From Acidimicrobium sp. (GTDB taxonomy: Bacteria; Actinomycetota; Acidimicrobiia; Acidimicrobiales; Ilumatobacteraceae), in NCBI GenBank assembly GCA_002737635.1, contig NSIC01000002.1, forward strand, positions 1-46,063: a stretch of 46,063 nt of DNA, read 5' to 3'. A program made the translations under genes and the position numbers. The notes under the pieces are model-generated. The model was not told the origin of the DNA. It searched no databases and worked only from the letters and a program-made list of their open reading frames with translations. Shown here in pieces: positions 1,015 to 20,120 of the stretch (position 1 is the stretch's first letter; each line of letters starts with the position of its first letter).

Positions 1015-1505
1015 AATTGTGCTTTCGATCGAGATGCTTTAACGGCAGACATGATCAACATCGCAGCACCGATTGTGACTGCCGAATCAGCAATGTTAAA
1101 CACCGGGAACCACTGAAAGTCGATGAAATCAACCACTGCGCCGGCCAACCACTTTTCGCCACGAAACAAGCGATCACCCACATTTCCGAGCGCGCCACCA
1201 ATCAACATTGAAGTGGCAAGGAGAGACATCTTCGTACTTGCTTTTCGCAAACTAAACCACAGCCACAGTGCGACACCAACCGCAAGCAGTCCGATCAGGC
1301 GTCCTGCACCTTGCCCTTGAGAAAAAGCCATGCCCGAGTTGAAAACCAAATTGAATCGCAATGTCCAGAACAGATCGATCGTTCGACCGTCGCCCAGCGA
1401 ATTAAGCGCCCAGTTTTTAGTCGCCTGATCGACAACCAAAACTGCGACGATAATAATTTTGGGTGTTGAGCCAATCGCCCTAGTAAGAACCAATGCCACC
1501 TGCAC
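1011..1505 (-). CDS. lspA: Lipoprotein signal peptidase (signal peptidase II)
   Basis: This 164-residue membrane aspartic protease cleaves signal peptides from prolipoproteins after lipid attachment. The family motifs are all visible: VDQATK near the N-terminus, NSGMAF, GGALGNVGDR, VVDFIDF with one catalytic Asp and FNIADSAV with the other. Four hydrophobic membrane segments can be traced. The GTG start at 1505 lies inside the end of the upstream DksA-like gene (26-base overlap); an in-frame GTG two codons later is also possible. The gene is coupled to rluD downstream. A predicted Tat lipoprotein at 44838-45650 is one likely substrate. Confidence 0.93.
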   Translation of the reverse strand: MQVALVLTRAIGSTPKIIIVAVLVVDQATKNWALNSLGDGRTIDLFWTLRFNLVFNSGMAFSQGQGAGRLIGLLAVGVALWLWFSLRKASTKMSLLATSMLIGGALGNVGDRLFRGEKWLAGAVVDFIDFQWFPVFNIADSAVTIGAAMLIMSAVKASRSKAQL

Positions 1506-2514
1506 GCTCGACTACTAATTCAGTTGTCCATGGAATTGCCTTTAATCGCTCACGCGGAATCGGCAACCCAGAACGCGCCGAGTAGCCATAATCGCCGGTC
1601 TCAAGTCGCTTAAGAGCTTCATCGATTTCTTCGACTGTCTGGCGTGCTGAAGCTGAAAGAGTCAGGCCGCGCTCACGCTCGACAACCATGGTGTCACCCT
1701 CGCCACCTTCGTCGTCAAACTGCACATCACCCATCTCTGAGTTTTCGACGATCGCATTTGCTTCGCTCTCAAGATGGTCGGCTTGACCAAGAAGATTGCG
1801 TCGTTCAACAGTCAACAATTCGCGTTGTGAGATCAAGAACTCAATATTGAACTCTTTGGTCGGCGTTATGCCATCTTGCATCACACCTTTAATAATTGGT
1901 GGCTTTGGTGGCGCAACTGGTTTGCGGTTGGCTTCGATTTCTGCCAGACGAACCGCTTCGCGCGCGGCGATCTTGGCGGCCTTCACGGCTTCGCGCGCCT
2001 GCTTTTCTTCTAAATGCTGCATTTCTTTAGCGACCTTCAGCGCCAACCGCTCGGCCATTTGTTGTGCCTTGAGCTTTGCGCGTTCTTTGGCTAAGCGCTG
2101 TGCTTCTCTTTGCTTTTCTTTTTGCGATCGCTTGCGCTCGGCAAGCGCACTGCGCTTATCAAGTTCTTTTTGCTTCTTGAGTGCTTTGATCTGGGCGAGC
2201 TTCTTCTTCAGTTCGAGCTTCTTCTTCAGTTCGAGCTTCTTCTTCAGTTCGAGCTTCTTCTTCAGTTCGAGCTTCTTCTTCAGTTCGAGCTTCTTCTTGA
2301 GTTCGAGCTTCTTCTTGAAAGCCAGTTTTTTCTGAAGTTCAAGCTTCTTCTTGAAAGCCAGTTTTTTCTGAAGTTCAAGCTTCTTCTTGAACGCCAGTTT
2401 TTTCTGGAACTCGATCTTCTTCTTCAGAGCAAGCTTGTTTTTGAGCATGACCTTTTTACGCGCTACAAGTTTCTTTTTAGCCATTGCCTGCTTTTTTTTC
2501 TTAGCAGATGCCAT
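1480..2514 (-). CDS. DksA/TraR-family protein with lysine-rich hexapeptide repeats
   Basis: The 344-residue protein has three parts. Residues about 20-110 are a tandem hexapeptide repeat of the type KKKLEL or QKKLAF. A charged Lys/Glu/Ala-rich helical region follows to about residue 200. The C-terminal third resembles the DksA/TraR domain, ending in GDYGYSARSGLPIPRERL and an IPW motif. The family's zinc-finger cysteines are replaced (GYS instead of GYC; no cysteine at the end), so zinc is probably not bound. The start is taken as the ATG at 2514 because a GAGAGGTG ribosome binding site precedes it; an in-frame GTG at 2520 lies within that site. A dksA/traR gene before lspA is typical in actinobacteria. 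RNA polymerase binding is inferred; the basic tail may bind nucleic acid. Confidence 0.82.
   Translation of the reverse strand: MASAKKKKQAMAKKKLVARKKVMLKNKLALKKKIEFQKKLAFKKKLELQKKLAFKKKLELQKKLAFKKKLELKKKLELKKKLELKKKLELKKKLELKKKLELKKKLAQIKALKKQKELDKRSALAERKRSQKEKQREAQRLAKERAKLKAQQMAERLALKVAKEMQHLEEKQAREAVKAAKIAAREAVRLAEIEANRKPVAPPKPPIIKGVMQDGITPTKEFNIEFLISQRELLTVERRNLLGQADHLESEANAIVENSEMGDVQFDDEGGEGDTMVVERERGLTLSASARQTVEEIDEALKRLETGDYGYSARSGLPIPRERLKAIPWTTELVVERAGGIGSY
2197..2448 (-). repeat. 18-bp tandem repeat inside the DksA-like gene
   Basis: About fourteen 18-bp units run in frame. Six nearly identical units cover 2197-2304 (plus-strand unit gagcttcttcttcagttc). The rest, to about 2448, alternate between two 18-bp variants, giving a 36-bp higher-order period. 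Each unit encodes a Lys-rich hexapeptide. The homogeneity of the first six units suggests recent expansion by slippage or unequal recombination. Confidence 0.95.
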
Positions 2515-2562
2515 TTTCACCTCTCAAGTGGCTCAATTTTAGAACGCACCAATTTGACCGCG

Positions 2563-5500
2563 TTACGATATCCGATTTACCGCAACAAACACTGCTACTC
2601 CATCTAAATCGGCATTCGGTAACTGTTTATCTGACAAGACGGTGACTTCTAAATCAACAGCCAGAGTCTCGGCCTTGATCGTTTCGTGGTGAGCAGAAAC
2701 CTGCACACAAAGTTCTTCAGGTAGACCAAGACGCAATTGAATGCGATCAGAAACATCTAGACCGACGTCGCGGCGCTGTTGTTGCACCAAGCGAATCACG
2801 TCGCGTGCCGCACCCTCGGCCTCAAGTTCGGGTGTCAACTCAATATCTAGAACTACGACGCCCGTCGCGCTACCCAATGCTGCACTTGCACCTGAAGCCT
2901 TCGGAACGAGTTTTAGTTGATATTCGCCTGGGTGCAAGTCGATCGAACCTGCCGTGACGACATCGCCGTTACGAACCCAGTCACCAGTTTTCACAGCTTT
3001 GATCACTGCTTGCGTATTCGCCCCAAGTCTTGGCCCGACGACACTCGGCACTACCTGCAACTCGAATTCTGCAACCGACGAAACATCATCAGAAAACTTC
3101 AACGAACGCACATTTACTTCGTCTTTGATGATGTCTTCAAACGCTGCAAGTGCCGCCGAATTTTCAGTGGCGATGATCAATGTCGCAAGCGGCTGTCGCA
3201 CTCGTCGACCGTGGCTCTTGCGCAAAGACAATGTTGTTGAGCAGACATCGCGAACCCGATCCATTGATGCGCCAAGTTTCGCATCGTGACGCAAGTTTTT
3301 AGTTGTTGGCCAAGACTGCAAATGAACACTTCGCTCACCTGTGAGCCCACGAAAGATTTGCTCGGATACGAGTGGTAAAACCGGCGCGGCGATGCGGGTC
3401 AAATAATGCAGAACCGTGTGCAACGTGTTGATCGCCGCGACATCACCCTTCCAGAATCGATCGCGACTGCGACGGATATACCAGTTGGTCAAAACGTCGA
3501 GAAAGGTTCGAATCTCAGCACATGCCGCGAACAAGTCGTATGCGTCAAAACTCTCGGTCGTTGCTTCGACTAAACCGTGCAATTTAGAAATGATGTAACG
3601 GTCTAGAACATTGTCGCTTGAAGCATCAAGAGTGCCAGAAACCGATTCTGCGTTCGCATACAACGACAAGAAATACCAGCTGTTCCAAAGCGGAAGAATC
3701 ACCTGACGCACGGTGTCGCGCATGCCTTCTTCAGTTACCGCAAAGTCAGAGCCACGCAAAATTGACGACGACAGCAAATACCATCGCATTGCATCCGCCC
3801 CATGGCTATCGAATACCTTCATCGGGTCTGGATAATTGCGCAAACTCTTAGACATCTTGGCGCCATCTTCGCCGAGCACGATGCCGTGGCTGACACAATT
3901 CGAAAATGCCGGGCGATCGAACAACGCGGTTGCTAAAACATGCAGCGTGTAAAACCAACCGCGAGTTTGGCCTATATATTCGACGATGAAGTCGCCAGGA
4001 TAGTGATTTTCGAACCATTGCTGATTTTCAAACGGATAATGCACTTGAGCAAACGGCATAGACCCACTCTCGAACCAGCAGTCCAGCACTTCAGGCACTC
4101 GACGCATCATCGACTTTCCACTTGGGTCGTCTGGGTTCGGGCGAACTAAATTATCAATTGTCGGTCGATGCAATTCTTGAATATCGACACCAAAATCACT
4201 GCGCAATTCTTCGAGGCTTCCGTAGACGTCGATGCGCGGAAAATTCGGGTCGTCACTTCGCCATACCGGTATTGGCGAACCCCAGAATCGATTGCGACTA
4301 ATTGTCCAGTCGCGCGCGTTCTCGAGCCACTTGCCGAAACTTCCGTGCTGCAGGTGATCTGGCACCCAGCGCACTTGCTCGTTGAGTTCGACCATACGAT
4401 CACGAATTGCCGTGACCTTGACGAACCACGACCCGACTGCTTTATAAATCAGCGGTTTTCCGGTGCGCCAACAATGAGGGTAGGCGTGATCGTAGGTCTC
4501 ATGACGAAACACGACACCGCGTTCTTTGAGCACCCGAATGATCGCCGGATTGGCGTCAAAAACTAATTGTCCGGCAAAATCGGCAACCTCGCTAGTGAAA
4601 CATCCGCGTGAGTCGACGGGCACGACTAATTCGATTCCTTCTTCTTGACAGACTCGCTGGTCGTCTTCACCAAATCCAGGCGCCAAGTGCACGACGCCCG
4701 TGCCATCTTCTGTCGTGACGAAATCTCCGGCGATTACTCGAAACGCCCCTGGTTGATCGGCAAAATAATTAAACAACGGCTTATATGTACGACCAACTAA
4801 TTGCGCACCAGAAATTGTTTCGAGAATTTTTGGTTCAGCAAACTCGCGTTCATAAGCCGACAATCTCTCGGCGGCGATAATCAATTTGCGGCCGGCATGC
4901 TCGATGACGACATAATCGACATCGGGCGCGACTGCCAATGCCAAGTTCGACGGCAGAGTCCAAGGGGTGGTTGTCCATGCCAACAAAAGTTCACCGGACG
5001 AGAGTTCAAAACCAACTGTCAGCGCCGGATCTTGCACCTGCTTGTAGGCATCGTCCATTCGTGTTTCGGTGTTTGAAAGCGGCGTTTCAAGTGCCCATGA
5101 ATATGGCAAAACTCTGAAGCCTTCGTAAATTAGACCCTTGTCCCAGAGAGTTTTAAACGCCCACATCACGCTCTCCATGTATGGCGTATCGAGGGTCTTG
5201 TAATCGTTTTCGAAATCAACCCAACGCGCTTGACGAGTTACATATCGTTCCCAGTCGCTGGTGTATTGCAACACCGAAGTGCGGCAATAGTCGTTGAATT
5301 TGTCGATGCCAAAATCGGTGATTGCTTGACGACCAGAGATGCCGAGTTGGCGCTCAGCTTCGGCTTCGGCAGGTAGTCCATGACAGTCCCAACCGAAACG
5401 ACGCTCGACTCGTTGACCGCGCATCGTGCGATAGCGAGGCACTGTGTCTTTGACGAACCCCGTGAGCAAGTGACCATAGTGTGGCAAACCGTTGGCGAAT

Positions 5501-5658
5501 GGTGGGCCGTCGTAAAAAACAAATTCGTTTTCGCCGTTCTTTCCGGCATCGCGCATCTCGATTGACGCAGCAAAAGTTTTGTCGGTCTTCCAATATTCGA
5601 GAACTCGATTCTCGAGCGATGGAAAGTTTGGTTGTGGTTCTACCTGCGGGTAAGACAC
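2563..5658 (-). CDS. ileS: Isoleucyl-tRNA synthetase, long eukaryote-like type
   Basis: The 1031-residue class I synthetase charges tRNA-Ile. The HIGH motif appears as PHYGH with the following [10 protein letters not shown] block, the KMSKS loop is intact ([12 protein letters not shown]), and the editing domain carries [15 protein letters not shown]. Length, the HYGH form and lack of a C-terminal zinc finger fit the eukaryote-like IleS clade, which in other bacteria is often mupirocin tolerant (family knowledge, not tested here). It starts at a GTG, 7 bases after the yggT stop, so there is no room for a T-box leader. It occupies the place where divIVA commonly follows yggT. Confidence 0.96.
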
Positions 5659-5665
5659 GAGTTAT

Positions 5666-5917
5666 TTAACACTTCAAAATCATGCGCTGCACAACGATTT
5701 GCAAAAACAGCAAGACAACCAGTGGCGATAGATCAAGAGCTCCCGTGCGCGGCATGATTCGGCGAACCCATTCAAGAACGGGTTCGGTGAATCTGCCAAC
5801 GAAGTACGAAACTTGCGCGACTACCCCACCGCTAGTGGATGGAAACCACGACAAGACCACACGAACAATGATCATGTAGATAAATATTTGAACAACACTG
5901 CACAGAATTCCGGTCAT
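5666..5917 (-). CDS. yggT: YggT family membrane protein
   Basis: This 83-residue protein has two hydrophobic segments, about residues 5-25 and 60-80. The intervening loop contains the YggT-family patterns VLSWFP and TEPVLEWVRRIMP. It lies between sepF and ileS, the usual place for yggT near ftsZ in Gram-positive bacteria. The molecular role is not well defined; links to division or envelope stress are inferred from conserved context. Confidence 0.9.
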   Translation of the reverse strand: MTGILCSVVQIFIYMIIVRVVLSWFPSTSGGVVAQVSYFVGRFTEPVLEWVRRIMPRTGALDLSPLVVLLFLQIVVQRMILKC

Positions 5918-7204: not shown

Positions 7205-8323
7205 TTATTTCAGAAATGATGGAAGATCGTCGTCATCATCGGCACCACTTAGTGGATCAGATGTGCCGCCGAACAAATCTTTCAACCGTCCACCCTTAGA
7301 GTCGGGGCGAACAGTGCCAGATGTCGCCGTGCTACGACCGTCACCGCGGGTGGCGGTGCGTTGTGCGGCACTGTCCCAGCGTTCAAAACCAGCTGCTACA
7401 ACTGTCACGCGAACTTCATCGTTGATATCGTCGTCAATGACCAAGCCGTGAATGATGTTTGCATCTTGATGAGCGACACCTCGCACGATCTCCATCGCGC
7501 TGGTCACTTCGAACAAGCCCACGTCTGACGGCCCGGTGATGTTCACGACTATGCCCCGTGCACCCTCAAGTGAGGCTTCGAGCAACGGCGAGTTGATCGC
7601 CGCATTTGCAGCCAAGACTGCTCGGTTGTCGCCGCTTGCGGCACCAGTGCCCATCAATGCCGTACCAGCATTTGCCAACACGGTTTTTACGTCAGCAAAG
7701 TCTGTGTTGATCAAACCTGGTGTGGTGATCAACCCTGTGATGCCTGAGACGCCCTGCACCAAAACTTCGTCAGCTTTTTTGAACGCATCCAGCATGCTCG
7801 TCTTGTCGGTCGAAATCGCCAGCAATCGCTCGTTCGGAATAACGACAAGCGTGTCTACTTTTTCTTTAAGTGCAGCGATACCGGCATCTGCCTGCACCGA
7901 ACGACGACGACCCTCAAATGCAAACGGTCGCGTAACAATCGCAACTGTCAAAGCACCTTCAGCCTTGGCGATCTCAGCAATCACCGGTGCGGCACCTGTA
8001 CCTGTGCCACCACCCTCACCTGCAGTAATGAACACCATGTCTGCGCCTGCGACAACTTCTTGAATCTCATCGCGATGTTGTTCAGCGGCTGCGCGACCAA
8101 CTTCTGGGTCGGCACCAGCGCCGAGACCACGGGTTAATTCACGACCAATATCAATTTTAACGCTTGCATCGCTCAACAACAGCGCTTGTGCATCGGTGTT
8201 GATCGCCACAAACTCGACGCCACGCATGCCTGACTCCATCATCCGATTGATTGCGTTCACACCGCCACCACCAACACCGATGACTTTGATAACTGCCAAA
8301 TAATTTTGTGGTTGACCGACCAT
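7205..8323 (-). CDS. ftsZ: Cell division GTPase FtsZ
   Basis: The 372-residue tubulin homologue forms the Z-ring. The N-terminal GTPase domain has [13 protein letters not shown], the tubulin signature [10 protein letters not shown] and NTDAQAL. The T7 synergy loop reads [10 protein letters not shown] with both catalytic aspartates; Leu is replaced by Thr compared with the usual NLDFADV. After a short variable linker comes an acidic C-terminal peptide [11 protein letters not shown], expected to bind SepF. The start is an ATG preceded by a 123-base intergenic region, suggesting its own regulation. Confidence 0.98.
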
Positions 8324-8446: not shown

Positions 8447-10552
8447 CTACTTCGACTTTACAGTTGGCGTCCGTGGGTCTGTTAAGTCGATTGCGATGAT
8501 CTGCTTGGCATCTTGTCTTCGCAACAATACGAGCAAAGAAATCAACTTGTTCTGCATATCAACCGGCGGACCAAAATTAATTAGAGTACCCGTGCGCAAA
8601 GTCATCACTAGTTGATTTGGTCCACCCACACCGACATTTAAGACTCGCTCCCTCAACTCATCAGGCAACCCCGCCGCAAGTTGCGCCGCGGCTTTATAAA
8701 CAGTGCCGGCGCTCGCACCTGGCGCAAGGTTTGGCCCAACACCCGTGATCTGTAAATACTGAGTTGGTTGACCGGTTTCAACAGCCAAAACACGACCTTG
8801 CGGATCGACGACTCGCGACCGGTTATCTACTCCTATATAGAAGGCCACTGGTTTGCGTTCAACGATCTCAATAACGAGTCTTGACGGAAAGAATGATTTG
8901 ATTCGTACTGACTCAACCCACGGGTCACCTTCGAGTCGGCGCTCGGCGGCTCGCGTATCAACTGTCAAAATTGACTTGCCGTCTAATGACTTCTCTACTG
9001 AGATCAATAAATCAGCGCTGACATATCGAACACCTTCAATTTCAATCTTGCGCACACCGATAATCGGCGAAGCCAGAACAATCAGCACCAGCGCCACTAC
9101 GCCCATCACTGATCCAGCAGCGACCAACAACCTACGGCGGTTGGAGGCAAGATTTCTGATGACATCTCTGCGTCGGTCTTCGAGGCGTGAATCACGAATG
9201 ATATTACTCGGATCAGAAGTGGGTGCAACATTTACAGAGCTCGTCAACTCGTCAATTGGATAATCAGAATCGACTGGCAATCGAAGATCTTCATCAACAA
9301 TGACTATTCGACCATTATTAGTTTTGAGCGTTAACGATGTGTTCGTCGTTGCCGAAAGTTCGTCTTTTGTTTTGTCGTGCGAGTTAGTTGAGTCACTAGG
9401 TTGCACGACTCTTAAATTGCCAGTTGGTGTTGCGTCACCCTCGAAGGCATCTTTGAGTTCTGCTAATACGTCGTCTGAAAGTTGTTCGGCAAAAGACGGC
9501 ACCGGAATCGACAAGTCGGTGTTGTTCGCCGAGCCAAAAGCAGATTCAATTTGTGTATGACGCAAGATCTCGGTCTGATAAAGCGCACCTGCATCTTGAG
9601 AAACAGCCGACGAAAAACCAGCCAAGCGAATTTCACTACGAAGATCTATGCCGTGCGTCTCAGATACGCGTTGGCGAATGAACGTCATCAACTCGACGAC
9701 ATCGTCGGCATTGCCGTCTTCATCGGCTTGAATAAAATTCGCGTGTTTTTCAGAAACTATGGCAGTGCCGACACGATAACCACGCAGACCTAAACCATCA
9801 ATCAATGCACCAGCCGACGCGGCGCCCGAAACTGGGTTGACAAAGACCGAACCAGCGTTTTGACCACCTGGCTGATTTTCGCGCCGCCATTTGACAATTT
9901 CGGCTAAACGCGATTCGCTTTCGGCTTTGTCTCCCCACGAGAGTCGCAAGGTCGCCGAGATGACGATGTGTTGGTCGTTCAGATCAGAACCTCGAAATCG
10001 CAACCCCAGATTTGCGGCCGAAACATTGGCCTCAATACCCCGTTGAAGATGGAACAATCGCACGCTCAACAAAGACGCAATCATGTCTGAGCCGTGACCA
10101 CCCGCATTCATTCTCACTGCCCCACCGATTGAACCTGGCACACCAACTGCCCATTCGAAACCGCGCAAACCTGCAGCAACACTTTGACGGGCAACAACCG
10201 GTAGCGACGCCATTGCCCCAACGACGACCACCGGCTCTTGACCAGTGCTCGGGAGATTTATTTGTTCGGCAAATGGTCCTAATGCGATTGCCAAACCGCG
10301 AAAGCCACTGTTGCTGATCAAAATATTGCTGCCACGACCGAGCATTAGAACAGGGATTCTGACTTTCGCAAGCGCACGCGATGCGGCGTGCAAATCATCG
10401 ATACTTATTGCCCGCATGAACAGCGCCGCCGAACCGCCGACTCGATATGTCGTGTATGGGCCAATTGGTTCGTCTTTCGTGATGCGATCGCCAAGCAAGG
10501 CCGCAAAGCGGTTCAAATCTTTTTCGCTCGGGTGCGCCAATTGTGAAATCAA
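8447..10552 (-). CDS. Fused UDP-N-acetylenolpyruvoylglucosamine reductase and FtsQ
   Basis: The 701-residue protein joins two normally separate proteins. Residues 1-312 are MurB, the FAD enzyme that reduces enolpyruvyl-UDP-GlcNAc to UDP-MurNAc: YTTYRVGG, LGRGSNIL, GVPGSIGGAVRMNAGG, catalytic Ser in NAGSVFVNP (about 235) and the Glu in RSEIRL (about 307). Residues 313-470 are a polar, probably disordered linker. Residues 475-497 form a membrane helix, 498-567 a POTRA domain (VRKIEIEGVRYVSADLL) and the rest the FtsQ beta domain. MurB would be on the cytoplasmic side, tethered to the divisome. The start is TTG, overlapping the murG-murC stop as TTGA. An internal TTG just before the membrane helix exists but lacks a good ribosome site. 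Confidence 0.92.
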   Translation of the reverse strand: MISQLAHPSEKDLNRFAALLGDRITKDEPIGPYTTYRVGGSAALFMRAISIDDLHAASRALAKVRIPVLMLGRGSNILISNSGFRGLAIALGPFAEQINLPSTGQEPVVVVGAMASLPVVARQSVAAGLRGFEWAVGVPGSIGGAVRMNAGGHGSDMIASLLSVRLFHLQRGIEANVSAANLGLRFRGSDLNDQHIVISATLRLSWGDKAESESRLAEIVKWRRENQPGGQNAGSVFVNPVSGAASAGALIDGLGLRGYRVGTAIVSEKHANFIQADEDGNADDVVELMTFIRQRVSETHGIDLRSEIRLAGFSSAVSQDAGALYQTEILRHTQIESAFGSANNTDLSIPVPSFAEQLSDDVLAELKDAFEGDATPTGNLRVVQPSDSTNSHDKTKDELSATTNTSLTLKTNNGRIVIVDEDLRLPVDSDYPIDELTSSVNVAPTSDPSNIIRDSRLEDRRRDVIRNLASNRRRLLVAAGSVMGVVALVLIVLASPIIGVRKIEIEGVRYVSADLLISVEKSLDGKSILTVDTRAAERRLEGDPWVESVRIKSFFPSRLVIEIVERKPVAFYIGVDNRSRVVDPQGRVLAVETGQPTQYLQITGVGPNLAPGASAGTVYKAAAQLAAGLPDELRERVLNVGVGGPNQLVMTLRTGTLINFGPPVDMQNKLISLLVLLRRQDAKQIIAIDLTDPRTPTVKSK

Positions 10553-15686: not shown

Positions 15687-16751
15687 TTAGCGGCGCATTT
15701 CAGAGAGGCTTTGCAAATTGGTGAAGTCGGCGATGAAGATAGCCACGGCAGTTGAGACGCAGATCGCAGAAATAATCCAAAAGCGAATAATCACAGTTGT
15801 CTCTGGCCAACCGCTTTGTTCGAAGTGATGATGAATCGGCGAGTTTTTAAACAAACGCTTTTTTCGCCCTGACGCTTTGAACACACCCATCTGCACCGCG
15901 ACCGACCCTGCTTCGATCACATTGATGCCACAGATAATTGGCAGCAGTAAGTGAGTGTTGGTTGTGACTGCGAGCAGACCGAGTGCGGTGCCAAGCCCGA
16001 GCGCACCGACATCGCCCATGAAGATTCGCGCTGGTGCTGCATTCCACCAAAGAAAACCACCGCAAGCGCCAGCCAACGATGCAGCGAGCACCGCAAGATC
16101 AAGCGGGTTGACTACATCGCCGTAAAACTGCGGATTTCTAAATGCCCAGTATGCGATAACAGTGAAGGCTATGAAACCAAATGATGCAGAACCCGCAGCC
16201 AAACCGTCGAGACCGTCTGTGACATTGACGGCGTTTGAAGTGCCCCAAACCATTAACGCCGTCCAGATAACGAATAGTGGCCAAGTAAAAGTGATACCAG
16301 GCAAATCGGCGCGGGTGAACGAAAGGGTTTCGCTGACGCCAGTCGCGGCCGTCAACCACCAGGTCAAGACGATGCAAATTGCAAAAGTAATGTAGCCCTT
16401 TTTCTTCCAAAAAAGTCCACGATTGTGTTGGCGCTGAACTTTAAGAAAGTCATCCAGAAAGCCGACAAAGCCCAACACAAATACTGCCGCCCAAATGATC
16501 ATCGACTGATCAGAAAATGGCAAACCGTCTCTGAAGTGGGCAATAAACCAACCAAACGCCGCCGAAAACAAAATAGCGATTCCGCCCATTGTCGGCGTGC
16601 CTTGCTTTTTCATGTGTTGCACCGGACCACGGTCTTCAGCACCAAGAATTGGTTGACCTTTGCCGAGGCGCTTGAACACCAAAATTAAAACACGAGTGCC
16701 AATGAGCGACGCAATCATCGCCACTGCGGCGGCTGTCAAAATTGCAATCAC
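15687..16751 (-). CDS. mraY: Phospho-N-acetylmuramoyl-pentapeptide transferase
   Basis: The 354-residue membrane enzyme transfers phospho-MurNAc-pentapeptide to undecaprenyl phosphate, making lipid I. About ten membrane segments are seen. Family motifs include QGTPTMGGIAIL-type sequence near residue 50, FLDDFLKV, NVTDGLDGLAAG, FMGDVGALGLG and HHHFEQSGWPE. The GTG start overlaps the murE stop as GTGA, so murF, which normally lies between them, is cleanly absent. Confidence 0.97.
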   Translation of the reverse strand: MIAILTAAAVAMIASLIGTRVLILVFKRLGKGQPILGAEDRGPVQHMKKQGTPTMGGIAILFSAAFGWFIAHFRDGLPFSDQSMIIWAAVFVLGFVGFLDDFLKVQRQHNRGLFWKKKGYITFAICIVLTWWLTAATGVSETLSFTRADLPGITFTWPLFVIWTALMVWGTSNAVNVTDGLDGLAAGSASFGFIAFTVIAYWAFRNPQFYGDVVNPLDLAVLAASLAGACGGFLWWNAAPARIFMGDVGALGLGTALGLLAVTTNTHLLLPIICGINVIEAGSVAVQMGVFKASGRKKRLFKNSPIHHHFEQSGWPETTVIIRFWIISAICVSTAVAIFIADFTNLQSLSEMRR

Positions 16752-18196
16752 GACGCGACTCTCAACAATTCGCGAGAAACTTCGACGTCACTGAAGGGCA
16801 GTTCGTTGGCGCCGATCGTTTGGGTTGCCTCATGGCCTTTACCCGCGATGATCACGATGTCACCTGGTTTCGCCGATACGAAGGCAGCAGCGATCGCATG
16901 GCGACGATCTAAGTCAACAGTCACTTTGCTTGAATCATTCAAGTCTTTAGAAGCCCCTTGTAAAATTTCGTTGGCGATTGTTAGGGCATCTTCATGGCGG
17001 GGATTATCTGAGGTGATGTAAACCAAATCTGCAAACCTCACCGCAACCGCACCCATCTTAGGTCGTTTCAAGTGATCGCGACCACCACCACAGCCAAACA
17101 CGAGAATTACTCTGTCGTTGCTGCTGACAATTTGTCGCGCGGCGATCAATACATTTTGCAATGCCTCAGGTGTATGCGCATAGTCAACTACAACTGAAAA
17201 ACTTTGACCGACGCTGACAGATTCGAATCTTCCCGGAACTGCGCTTGCAGCAGCCAAACCTTTAGCGATGTCACCAAGAGTGACACCAAGTTTGGCTGCT
17301 GCAGTCGCGGCAGCTAGCGCGTTCATTAAATTGAATTGTCCACCCATTTGTATTTCGAATTTTTGGTCTCGCCAAACGAACGAGACTTTTGTGGCGTCTG
17401 CGTGAATTTCTCGTGCATCTTCGACGCCAAAAGATTCGTACTGCATAAGTTTGTCTTTCGCAACTGAATCAATCAAAAGAGACCCATGAACATCGTCTCG
17501 GTTGATGATGCACGTATTTGTAAACTGTTTCGTGAATAGCCCGGCTTTGGCGCCAAAATAGTCTTCGGTTGACTTGTGAAAATCTAAATGATCTTGACCA
17601 AGATTTGTGAAGAGAGCGGCTTTGAACGATGTGCCTTCAACGCGTCGCAAAGTAAGCGCATGCGATGAAACTTCCATCACGACTGCTTGACAACCGCGAT
17701 CTAACTCTTGGGCCAAGAGTTGTTGCAAGTCTGTCGATTCTGGCGTTGTGCGTGCGCCTGTAAGTGTGCCAATCACTGAGGTCGACCAGCCGTGTTGATG
17801 CAAGATCGCCGCCAACATGTGGGCCGTCGTCGTTTTGCCGTTTGTGCCAGTTATGCCGATGACATTCAGTTTTTGGCTTGGTCGATTAAATAATTCAGCG
17901 GCAAGAAACCCCATCGCTGAGCGCACATCACTGACTACGACCTGTGTGATACCAATTTCAATCCGTCGCTCAACAAGCAATGCAACCGCACCATTGGCCT
18001 CAGCAACTTTGGCAAAATCATGACCATCGACATTTTCGCCGACGATGCAACAAAATATTGCGCCACTAGAAACTTTTGACGAGTCGTGAGTGATGCTCGA
18101 AACTTTTACTGTTGCGCTGCCAATTATTTGAGTGATAGCAACCTCAGATGTACTTGCCAGCAATTCATCTAACTGGCGTTCTAATCTGACCGACAT
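16748..18196 (-). CDS. murE: UDP-MurNAc-L-Ala-D-Glu--meso-diaminopimelate ligase
   Basis: The 482-residue Mur ligase adds the third stem-peptide residue. The P-loop is ITGTNGKTTTAHML; EVSSHALTLRRV and NLGQDHLDFH follow. The substrate signature DNPRHED is the meso-diaminopimelate form (Lys enzymes lack the DNPR Arg). The C-terminus has VDLDRRHAI and IAGKGHE. The ATG at 18196, just after the ftsI stop, is chosen over the GTG at 18238 that would overlap ftsI by 41 bases, because it gives a normal N-terminus; neither has a strong ribosome site. Confidence 0.95.
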   Translation of the reverse strand: MSVRLERQLDELLASTSEVAITQIIGSATVKVSSITHDSSKVSSGAIFCCIVGENVDGHDFAKVAEANGAVALLVERRIEIGITQVVVSDVRSAMGFLAAELFNRPSQKLNVIGITGTNGKTTTAHMLAAILHQHGWSTSVIGTLTGARTTPESTDLQQLLAQELDRGCQAVVMEVSSHALTLRRVEGTSFKAALFTNLGQDHLDFHKSTEDYFGAKAGLFTKQFTNTCIINRDDVHGSLLIDSVAKDKLMQYESFGVEDAREIHADATKVSFVWRDQKFEIQMGGQFNLMNALAAATAAAKLGVTLGDIAKGLAAASAVPGRFESVSVGQSFSVVVDYAHTPEALQNVLIAARQIVSSNDRVILVFGCGGGRDHLKRPKMGAVAVRFADLVYITSDNPRHEDALTIANEILQGASKDLNDSSKVTVDLDRRHAIAAAFVSAKPGDIVIIAGKGHEATQTIGANELPFSDVEVSRELLRVAS

Positions 18197-18197
18197 C

Positions 18198-20120
18198 TCA
18201 GTGGCTCGGTCCAAATTCTGCTGGGCGCGAACCAACACAACCCATATCGTCGCCCTCAGGGCGAATGTTCAACTCGTTAATTAGCACTTGGCCAATGCGC
18301 GCAAAAACTGGTGCGGCCGCGGTGCCACCAAATCGGTCTCGAGAATATGGATCCGGCTCGTCGATTGAAACAAGCACAGTCATGCGTGGATTATTCGCCG
18401 GCAGAAAACCGACGAATGACGCAAAGTAAGTTCTCGCGCCCTCGTCGTTCATATATGTGCCATTTTCTTGCAACTTATAGGCCGTACCAGTCTTGCCGGC
18501 GACACTTAATCCGGGAAGTTTCGCAAGAGTGCCCGTGCCATGGCAAACAACATCGGTCATCAGCGAAGCCATCGTTTGCGCGGTTGATTCTGAAATTACT
18601 TGGCGTGTCGGCGATTCAGGAGTCGCAGTCTCTAATCCGTTTTTGTCGGTTGTCTTAAGCACCAACTTGGGTGCGACATACACGCCCTTATTGGCAACTG
18701 TGTTTACCGCTGCGGCAAGTTGCAGCGCGGTCGATGTATAGCCATAGCCATAGGCAAATGTAATTTTCTCGGTACCTTGCCATTTTGACGCGGGTCGTAA
18801 CGCCCCACGAGATTCACCTGGATATTCAACAGCAGTCTTGACACCAAAACCGAAAAGCTTTAGATATTCGTGGTTCTTTTTGGTGTCAAGCGTTCGCGAG
18901 ACAAGCACCGTACCAAGGTTTGAAGAGTCGACGAAAATTTTTCGAACTGACATTTCTTCAAGACCGTGTGGATATGCATCAGTAACTTTGTACTCCCATT
19001 GGGTTCCTTTATCGAACATTTGATAGCCGGGAACGCTAAATGTTGAACCAATGTTGACCGAACCTTCGTTGATTGCCGCAGCGATGCTGAAAACTTTGGC
19101 AACTGAACCTGGCTCGTTTGCTTCGACCGAGGAGAAGTTGCCAGACTGACTTGAATAACTTCCGTCTTCGTTGCGACGTATATTTGACATCGCATAAATT
19201 TCACCCGTTTTTGTATCCATGACGATCGCCATGCCGCCACGGGCGCCAAGTCGCTCGACTTGTTGTTTGACGATGCCGTCCACTTGAAACTGAATCGTGC
19301 GATCAATGGTCGTCGTCAGTTGACCACCAGACTGCGGTTCGAGCACCTCACCTGATCCTGCAGCGATTGATTTGCCACTGCTATTTACTTCTCTAACGAT
19401 TCGGCCATCCACCCCAACGAGCAGATCGTGATACTTCAACTCAAGACCTGAGATACCGACGCCATCAACATCGGTGCGACCGACGACAGCCAGCAAACTC
19501 TCACTCGAAAGAGCGCGACCCGATTCACGATATGAAGAAACACCCTTCAACCCGAGCGCCAAAATTGCATCGGCTACTTCTTTGTCGACCTGGCGGGCGA
19601 TATAAACAAAACTCGAAGTTTTATTCTGCAACTTGGTCGCAAGTTCAACTTCGGCTTGCGGGTCAAGCTGCAACACCCCGGCCACTACATGAGCCACGCC
19701 AACTGGGTCAACCACAGATCGAGGATCAGCGAAAACAGTTCTAGTCGGCACAGGAAGCGCCAACTCTCTACCGTTGCGATCCAAAATTGAGCCGCGCTCG
19801 GCGCGAATTACCTGCACGCGAGTTCGTTGTGAAACACTCGCCTCGCGATAGTCGCTGGCCCAAACTGTTTGCAAAAGTGCGACTCGCACGCCAAGTAGCG
19901 AGAGCAAAATTGCTACAACCATGAACATCGAAACAATGCGCTTTTGCATATTGCCGCCGCGCAAGTCTTTTGTGAAAAAATCTCTACCTTTTGTAGTTAC
20001 TGACGTCGCTCGATACGAGATCTCAGAGTTGCGCACACGATTTGCATCTATGCGTCGCCCACCACGCGATCGACCCCGCGTGCGAGAACCGGTGTTGTCT
20101 CGGCCAGCTATTGTGCTCAT
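18198..20120 (-). CDS. ftsI: Penicillin-binding protein, FtsI (PBP3) type transpeptidase
   Basis: The 640-residue protein cross-links septal peptidoglycan. A basic cytoplasmic tail of about 57 residues leads to a single membrane helix (about 60-82), then the PBP dimerisation domain with RGSILDRNGRELA (about 109-121). The transpeptidase domain has the active serine in SVAK (339-342), SSN (399-401) and KTGT (543-546). It overlaps the ftsL-like gene by 4 bases. The basic N-terminal extension is common in actinobacterial FtsI. Confidence 0.96.
   Translation of the reverse strand: MSTIAGRDNTGSRTRGRSRGGRRIDANRVRNSEISYRATSVTTKGRDFFTKDLRGGNMQKRIVSMFMVVAILLSLLGVRVALLQTVWASDYREASVSQRTRVQVIRAERGSILDRNGRELALPVPTRTVFADPRSVVDPVGVAHVVAGVLQLDPQAEVELATKLQNKTSSFVYIARQVDKEVADAILALGLKGVSSYRESGRALSSESLLAVVGRTDVDGVGISGLELKYHDLLVGVDGRIVREVNSSGKSIAAGSGEVLEPQSGGQLTTTIDRTIQFQVDGIVKQQVERLGARGGMAIVMDTKTGEIYAMSNIRRNEDGSYSSQSGNFSSVEANEPGSVAKVFSIAAAINEGSVNIGSTFSVPGYQMFDKGTQWEYKVTDAYPHGLEEMSVRKIFVDSSNLGTVLVSRTLDTKKNHEYLKLFGFGVKTAVEYPGESRGALRPASKWQGTEKITFAYGYGYTSTALQLAAAVNTVANKGVYVAPKLVLKTTDKNGLETATPESPTRQVISESTAQTMASLMTDVVCHGTGTLAKLPGLSVAGKTGTAYKLQENGTYMNDEGARTYFASFVGFLPANNPRMTVLVSIDEPDPYSRDRFGGTAAAPVFARIGQVLINELNIRPEGDDMGCVGSRPAEFGPSH

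Follow-up and report, generated by a model that had tools for sequence, protein, structure and literature searches.

A predicted MurB-FtsQ fusion protein in freshwater Ilumatobacteraceae

The stretch of DNA analysed here, hereafter the window, comprises 46,063 nucleotides of contig NSIC01000002.1 of Acidimicrobium sp. (Ilumatobacteraceae) and carries a division and cell wall (dcw) cluster, in which murB, encoding a peptidoglycan precursor enzyme, and ftsQ, encoding a membrane protein of the divisome, form one open reading frame. The best explanation overall, to which we give a probability of roughly 0.8, is that the stop codon between the two genes was lost and that a single MurB-FtsQ protein tethers MurB at the membrane via FtsQ. 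It is almost certain that one chain is made, and it is probable that this chain remains uncleaved and active in both parts. In what follows, G denotes genomes of the genus, L fetched loci and g genera; the window's own genome (G000) is a 0.98-Mb bin, 71% complete, in which the window is contig 12.

Domain composition and predicted topology

The fusion gene occupies positions 10552 to 8447 of the minus strand, where a TTG start opens an uninterrupted frame of 701 amino acids, while the plus strand over the same positions has many stops. Pfam domains of both proteins follow one another in this frame: FAD_binding_4 (residues 44-166, 47.1 bits, cut-off 26.4), MurB_C (214-310, 89 bits, cut-off 27), POTRA_1 (500-566, 51.1 bits, cut-off 23) and FtsQ_DivIB_C (576-690, 23.0 bits, cut-off 21). 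The MurB part also exceeded the cut-off of the NCBIfam model TIGR00179 (171.3 over 144.5) and came just short of that of PRK13905 (255.2, cut-off 259). Besides FAD_binding_4 and MurB_C, it has the conserved Arg, Ser and Glu (R187, S235 and E307), which are invariant across the 30 rows of the alignment and pair with R, S and E of the S. aureus MurB structure 1hsk. These correspond to the active-site residues of MurB.

The second part has the features of FtsQ, namely an FtsQ-type POTRA domain after one membrane helix with an arginine-rich cytoplasmic side, and a C-terminal beta domain. Hydropathy gave a single strongly hydrophobic stretch in the whole protein (477-497), and a charge count found eight lysines or arginines within the 24 residues 455-478. 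This supports the topology proposed in the initial annotation, with MurB inside the cell and the POTRA and beta domains outside.

In an AlphaFold2 model computed from the 30-row alignment (mean pLDDT 74.2) the MurB and FtsQ domains were mostly at 80-90, residues 371-462 fell below 50, and a short helix of low confidence (360-370) and a longer one (458-494) were predicted. Foldseek searches with this model retrieved MurB 1hsk (TM 0.90) and FtsQ 6h9o (TM 0.54; by target length), and also 5z2w and 8hhf. Judged by sequence and model together, both halves of the protein look functional.

Occurrence in the genus

Of 29 genomes of the genus, 28 gave a single match to MurB_C and 27 a single match to POTRA_1, neither domain was ever seen twice, and no second MurB or FtsQ was found elsewhere in these genomes. 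All 27 genomes that hold both domains have them in one open frame, with the same contig, strand and length; of the remaining two, G027 gave neither match and G009 stops at a contig edge within MurB. The frame is thus real, and neither chance nor assembly error, since every genome with both domains keeps it. A shared MurB-FtsQ frame, in some cases cut by contig ends, is likewise present in 40 of the 79 loci taken from a genome collection. The single bitopic frame claimed by the initial annotation is supported. A linker interrupted by a stop codon in related genomes, which had been named as possible counter-evidence, was seen in none of the 27 genus members spanning both domains. In one of them, G018, whose gene is that of L040, 100 N inside murB-ftsQ leave the tail incompletely read. 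Neighbouring frames are broken in L040 (murC) and L045 (ftsW and ftsZ), probably by sequencing or assembly errors; murB-ftsQ is open in both loci.

The stretch between MurB and the membrane helix

The initial annotation described a connector of 160 residues between the two domains, and this part of it has to be revised. The two genes stand side by side in all 43 unfused relatives, with a 4-base ATGA or GTGA overlap available in 24; in the closest sister genera, ftsQ mostly has its first likely start 10-48 bases past the murB stop or overlapping it by a few bases. The FtsQ of unfused Ilumatobacteraceae has a long N-terminal tail, and this tail shares with the fused linkers a short conserved element, motif A, close to the pattern [VIA]L[DE]EL..[AV]F. 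The pattern, which was devised after viewing the sequences, matched 33/43 unfused tails and 41/41 fused linkers (4/8600 and 3/8200 shuffled sequences); among the unfused tails it occurred in 33/35 from Ilumatobacteraceae and in 0/8 others, L097 and L105 being counted among the latter though absent from the tree described below. The core of motif A lies at residues 362-370 of the window protein, and the motif was found in no other protein of the window. A profile comparison of fused with unfused tails was weak overall (probability 72) and aligned them at motif A. Closer to the membrane, the motif B block, RIVIVDEDLRLP in the window, resembles by eye the (T)IVI.D.D.PD of unfused tails.

A linker newly evolved for the fusion was rejected, as motif A is already present in unfused FtsQ tails. 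By this comparison the linker is mostly the ancestral cytoplasmic tail of FtsQ, preceded by about 45 junction residues, and the novelty therefore lies mainly in the joint, at about residues 314-357. The stretch is acidic, with 24 D/E vs 9 K/R in residues 314-454. Motif A (VLxELxxAF) is strongly constrained and may be a candidate binding site for some partner.

Codon differences were compared across 17 sequences of the genus, L040 being excluded from set A2 and from the codon sets because of its N; in the pN/pS set the row of L047, whose true start is TTG, was trimmed at an incorrect codon. The pN/pS values, which are rough because synonymous changes approach saturation (pS about 0.7), were 0.160 for MurB, 0.465 for residues 314-345, 0.143 for 346-374, 0.477 for 375-412, 0.182 for 413-446, 0.497 for 447-475, 0.310 for 476-498 and 0.130 for 499-695, and in every part of the gene the differences were mostly at third positions. 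Gap cells numbered 0 in residues 314-345 and 333 in 375-412. A nucleotide alignment made blind to the protein had 51 gap runs, each with a length divisible by 3; agreement in net length was imposed by selecting members with one open frame, and compensating local gaps, which were possible, were not seen. To judge from these patterns, the whole stretch from MurB to FtsQ is translated and selected coding sequence.

Origin of the fusion and related fusions

A tree was inferred with FastTree from MurC, MurB, the extracytoplasmic part of FtsQ, and FtsZ; loci without at least 60% of MurC, MurB and FtsQ were dropped (100 kept), five near-identical ones were then removed, and some long branches were flagged among the remaining 95. 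The MurB-FtsQ state changes once on this tree, at the base of a clade of 38 rows (support 100). The 38 loci of this clade are less than 98.5% identical to each other, and the collections hold one genome per species. They belong to three genera (g1, g5 and g9), whose bins are 0.9-2.2 Mb in size. Outside these genera no full-length MurB-FtsQ was found among the matches listed for 397 genomes of the order and 396 of the phylum, in which distant FtsQ is weakly matched; among 20 fetched genomes with long MurB frames none had MurB and FtsQ in one frame, and two (L135 and L139) had MurC and MurB.

In the proposed course of events, neighbouring murB and ftsQ were merged a single time, in the common ancestor of the three genera, which are freshwater Actinomycetota ('acIV') of the Ilumatobacteraceae, when the intervening stop was lost via a point change or a small indel. 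The bitopic protein would hold MurB on a flexible acidic tether of ~140 residues at the cytoplasmic face. FtsQ would bring MurB to the divisome, so UDP-MurNAc would be made at the membrane by an enzyme in fixed 1:1 ratio with FtsQ, and this product would be the substrate of MurC, here joined to MurG. The tether would thus set the place and dose of MurB, and the product of MurB would not be restricted to the septum.

Other joints of the same block are also fused in this group. The MurG-MurC state changes three times on the tree (the window genus, L111 and L112-L114) and MurC-MurB twice (genus g2, and L135 with L139 of another family), the state of L111 being taken from open frames of a single bin and that of L135/L139 from those of two. 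All these changes are read as gains, while the count itself gives no direction of gain vs loss. MurC-MurB frames were found in L090, L092, L093, L094, L100, L102 and L117-L119 (L118 and L119 nearly duplicate L100 and L092) and separately in L135 and L139, where FtsW stands just ahead of MurC-MurB and a domain search found no MurG in the stretch. In L112, L113 and L114 a single frame of 1164-1185 aa holds MurG, MurC and MurB, and FtsQ is separate. Because of these separate fusions, all three joints of murG-murC-murB-ftsQ occur in fused form within the order. FtsW-MurG and FtsQ-FtsZ fusions were not seen in the fetched loci.

Neutral fusion or tethered precursor complex

We give an even chance to the possibility that the fusion is a neutral result of genome streamlining, in which the stop was lost, the flexible tail kept both domains working and nothing was gained; the fusion would then persist since a re-split needs a new stop, start and ribosome site simultaneously. 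The spacing of the genes in unfused relatives, neighbouring and often overlapping, is in line with this, as are the small sizes of the fused genomes, the long flexible tail, which in the model decouples the parts, and the three state changes of MurG-MurC, whose steps are not consecutive. Neutral loss of stops accounts less readily for six state changes falling on three joints of murG-murC-murB-ftsQ with none seen at FtsW-MurG or FtsQ-FtsZ, and small yet unfused relatives exist (g3, L115/L125; g34, L150).

Somewhat less probable, and put forward tentatively, is that the fusions reflect contacts of MurG, MurC, MurB and FtsQ in a tethered precursor complex, in which UDP-MurNAc is passed on at the division-site membrane. 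The fusion of differing joints of one four-gene block in related lineages, including the MurG-MurC-MurB chain, would be explained by such contacts, and they would agree with the co-localisation of Mur enzymes in Caulobacter and the binding of MurE-MurF to MurG, both reported in PMC6420597. The disorder of the tail in the model argues against such a complex, and so does the presence of mreB in all 29 genus genomes, so that the product must leave the septum too. The identification of mreB was made with TIGR00904, whose cut-off was exceeded in every genome; the broader MreB model was insufficient, as it also matches in controls such as Corynebacterium. Two mreB-family genes of the window's genome are over this cut-off (G000:C45:8450-9424 and G000:C34:16233-17204). 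At least two FtsW/RodA family matches, some of them fragments, were found in 25/29 genomes, and the RodA equivalog TIGR02210 reached its cut-off in 0/29 (best 305 of 336.7 bits); in G000 the better-scoring RodA-like copy lies ~4 kb from mreB on contig 45.

Wall synthesis at the septum only, which would make the placing of MurB on FtsQ trivial, was rejected, since mreB is present in 29/29 genomes, and for the same reason the sole MurB found must also feed elongation. Septal production of UDP-MurNAc by MurB-FtsQ is plausible as a prediction only; exclusive septal use cannot be the case. A stronger form, in which the MurB, MurC and MurG steps run from membrane-tethered fusions anchored to the divisome by FtsQ, with the sole MurB permanently on FtsQ, seems doubtful. 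We could not decide whether the tethering is adaptive or the fusion neutral and hard to reverse: the six state changes favour contact, whereas the close spacing of the genes and the small genome sizes point to drift.

Integrity of the chain

A polyprotein, with one chain cut in the variable tail (at about residues 377-411) to release MurB from an FtsQ whose tail is then shorter, is improbable. Residues 375-412 are the most gapped, among the least conserved, and disordered, as might be expected of a cleaved segment. Nonetheless, no conserved cleavage site was apparent by eye in the alignment, for which no dedicated cleavage-site search was made, and motif A, an ancestral FtsQ feature at pN/pS 0.14, would be left on the MurB side of the cut.

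It is more improbable still that an internal start supplies most of the FtsQ, the fusion being an effect of annotation. In-frame GTG, ATG and TTG codons do occur in the linker, and the initial annotation had pointed to a TTG near residue 475; this codon is not conserved, and the one widely shared linker start column is position 351, with a start codon in 12/17 sequences. Columns with a start codon in at least 60% of the 17 sequences are rarer in the linker (1/176) than in the MurB core (13/280), and the best ribosome-site energy of the internal starts is -3.2 vs -7.2 at the real start, so no strong ribosome site was found. The energy test alone is not decisive because several true gene starts of the window have energies no better than those of the internal starts and likewise lack a ribosome-site-like sequence. 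Upstream of 351 the junction keeps the frame and shows no gaps, and since MurB has no stop, readthrough into FtsQ is unavoidable.

An assembly or frameshift artefact, which bins and the few broken neighbour frames in L040 and L045 might suggest, has a negligible probability, given that the frame recurs in 27/27 genus genomes holding both domains and in 40 separate loci, and that many assemblies under different names are represented.

Several points weigh against a single, intact MurB-FtsQ protein. The protein is predicted here from gene sequences and models. Nearly all genomes are metagenome bins, and only 4/29 reach 90% completeness with contamination of 5% or less. The pTM of the AlphaFold2 model is 0.48. 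The match to FtsQ_DivIB_C exceeds its cut-off by 2 bits only, and the NCBIfam FtsQ equivalogs are far below theirs (67 of 353 bits for NF004039); as that model covers one narrower FtsQ group, the claim made here is of an FtsQ-family protein and not of an NF004039 equivalog. To these can be added the near-saturation of synonymous sites and the weak ribosome sites of true starts mentioned above; cleavage of the tail, or a minor FtsQ product from an internal start, may occur.

Comparison with known fusions

In PMC6420597, fusions MurE-MurF (Bordetella pertussis), MurB/MurC, MurG/MurC, MurC/Ddl and MraY/MurG are listed, and MurB, MurC, MurE, MurF, MraY and MurG are described as co-localising in Caulobacter. 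In Verrucomicrobium spinosum a murCB fusion is reported to be essential (PMC12283558), and PMC5814848 reports one MurC-MurB and one Ddl-MurC fusion. The MurG-MurC protein of the window is of this known kind, and MurB-FtsQ resembles it in that adjacent genes are joined; it differs in that no Mur-Fts fusion is among those listed in the available text of PMC6420597, and that its second partner is FtsQ, whereas the Mur-Mur fusions known so far pair Mur or Ddl enzymes of the precursor pathway. As in V. spinosum, MurB is joined to a dcw neighbour in one chain; there, however, two cytoplasmic enzymes of consecutive steps are combined, whereas here the partner is a membrane protein of the divisome. 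A further parallel is FtsB of Mycobacterium smegmatis, an actinobacterial divisome protein fused to the product of a neighbouring gene, DUF501 (PMC9846249), although the function of that partner is unknown and the partner here is a precursor enzyme. With murB and ftsQ of unfused Ilumatobacteraceae (such as L073-L075, L081-L087, L112-L116 and L125) the fusion shares the gene order, the neighbouring or overlapping position and the tail motif, but those are two proteins.

The term 'murB-ftsQ' in PMC3762067 and PMC4324946 denotes transcripts or a gene region rather than a fusion protein, 'murG-murC' in PMC7231273 denotes an operon, and PMC8871954 treats gene order. No MurB-FtsQ or other Mur-divisome fusion was met with in the literature searched, which covered few subscription papers and no bioRxiv preprints. 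Thus, while Mur-Mur fusions are already known, MurB-FtsQ is, as far as these searches reach, the first fusion of a Mur enzyme with a divisome protein.

Gene neighbourhood

The positions of the features are collected in Table 1.

Table 1. Features of the murB-ftsQ fusion gene and its immediate neighbours (positions in the window; residues of the encoded protein)
Feature	Residues	Position	Strand	Basis or remarks
murB-ftsQ fusion gene	701 aa	8447..10552	-	Same frame in 27/27 genus genomes with both domains
MurB domain	1-313	9614..10552	-	Pfam and TIGR00179; PDB 1hsk, E 1.5e-40; Foldseek 1hsk, TM 0.90
Junction	314-357	9482..9613	-	MurB end and beginning of FtsQ tail; matches protein ends of unfused relatives
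Motif A (LSDDVLAELKDAFEGDATP)	358-376	9425..9481	-	Predicted short helix
Variable disordered tail	377-411	9320..9424	-	Gaps; pN/pS 0.477; pLDDT <50
Motif B block (RIVIVDEDLRLP ... APTS)	412-450	9203..9319	-	pN/pS 0.182; P444 and S446 invariant
Membrane helix (predicted)	477-497	9062..9124	-	Arginine-rich cytoplasmic side; hydropathy; model helix 458-494
FtsQ-type POTRA_1 domain	500-566	8855..9055	-	Pfam
FtsQ/DivIB C-terminal beta domain	576-690	8483..8827	-	Pfam; Foldseek FtsQ 6h9o, 5z2w, 8hhf
TTGA overlap (murG-murC stop / murB-ftsQ start)		10549..10552	-	GAGGT upstream; duplex energy -7.2
murG-murC fusion gene	845 aa	10549..13086	-	Pfam and NCBIfam
ftsZ, separate gene next downstream		7205..8323	-	Pfam

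The adjacent MurG-MurC fusion and its TTGA overlap with murB-ftsQ, both described in the initial annotation, were found as stated. The murG-murC gene (13086 to 10549) combines Glyco_transf_28, Glyco_tran_28_C and three Mur ligase domains in one frame, and it exceeded the cut-off of the NCBIfam model for murC (TIGR01082, 410 over 335) and remained below that for murG (TIGR01133, 229.5, cut-off 250). Its TGA stop shares TTGA with the TTG start of murB-ftsQ, and GAGGTAAG lies just upstream; GAGGTAA followed by TTGA is also present in L034, L036, L042 and L047.

Along the minus strand the genes run mraZ, rsmH, ftsL-like, ftsI, murE, mraY, murD, ftsW, murG-murC, murB-ftsQ, ftsZ, yggS-like, sepF and yggT, in which ftsL, murD, murE, mraY and yggS are presumptive names given from position and sequence resemblance. 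At 15687-18238 murE stands directly before mraY with no murF between them. A loss of murF was rejected: the gene was located at G000:C20:7868-9079, and murF is over the cut-off in 22/29 genus genomes by a tally. In the region 2563-5917 (minus strand) an IleRS-like gene comes directly after yggT, and no divIVA-like ORF was seen between the two, no family search having been made for it. Further downstream (1480-2520, minus strand) a 346-aa protein carries a long lysine-rich KKKLEL repeat; it had no Pfam match at E 0.001, and its C-terminal part is TraR/DksA-like by eye.

Implications

Whether cytoplasmic Mur enzymes work in complex with the division machinery is a long-standing open question. 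If the stronger reading, with the MurB, MurC and MurG steps anchored to the divisome by FtsQ, were true, the fusions at three joints in related genera would be a natural record of a physical MurG-MurC-MurB-FtsQ assembly that is weakly held in other bacteria. The apparently obligatory, single-copy MurB-FtsQ (38 loci), together with the MurG, MurC and MurB fusions of its relatives, would provide ready-made test constructs. The fusion would also set a limit, in that an enzyme serving all wall synthesis would be locked 1:1 to a divisome protein despite the presence of mreB. With MurB locked to FtsQ and mreB present, either diffusion of UDP-MurNAc would suffice for elongation, or FtsQ in these bacteria would not be confined to the septum.

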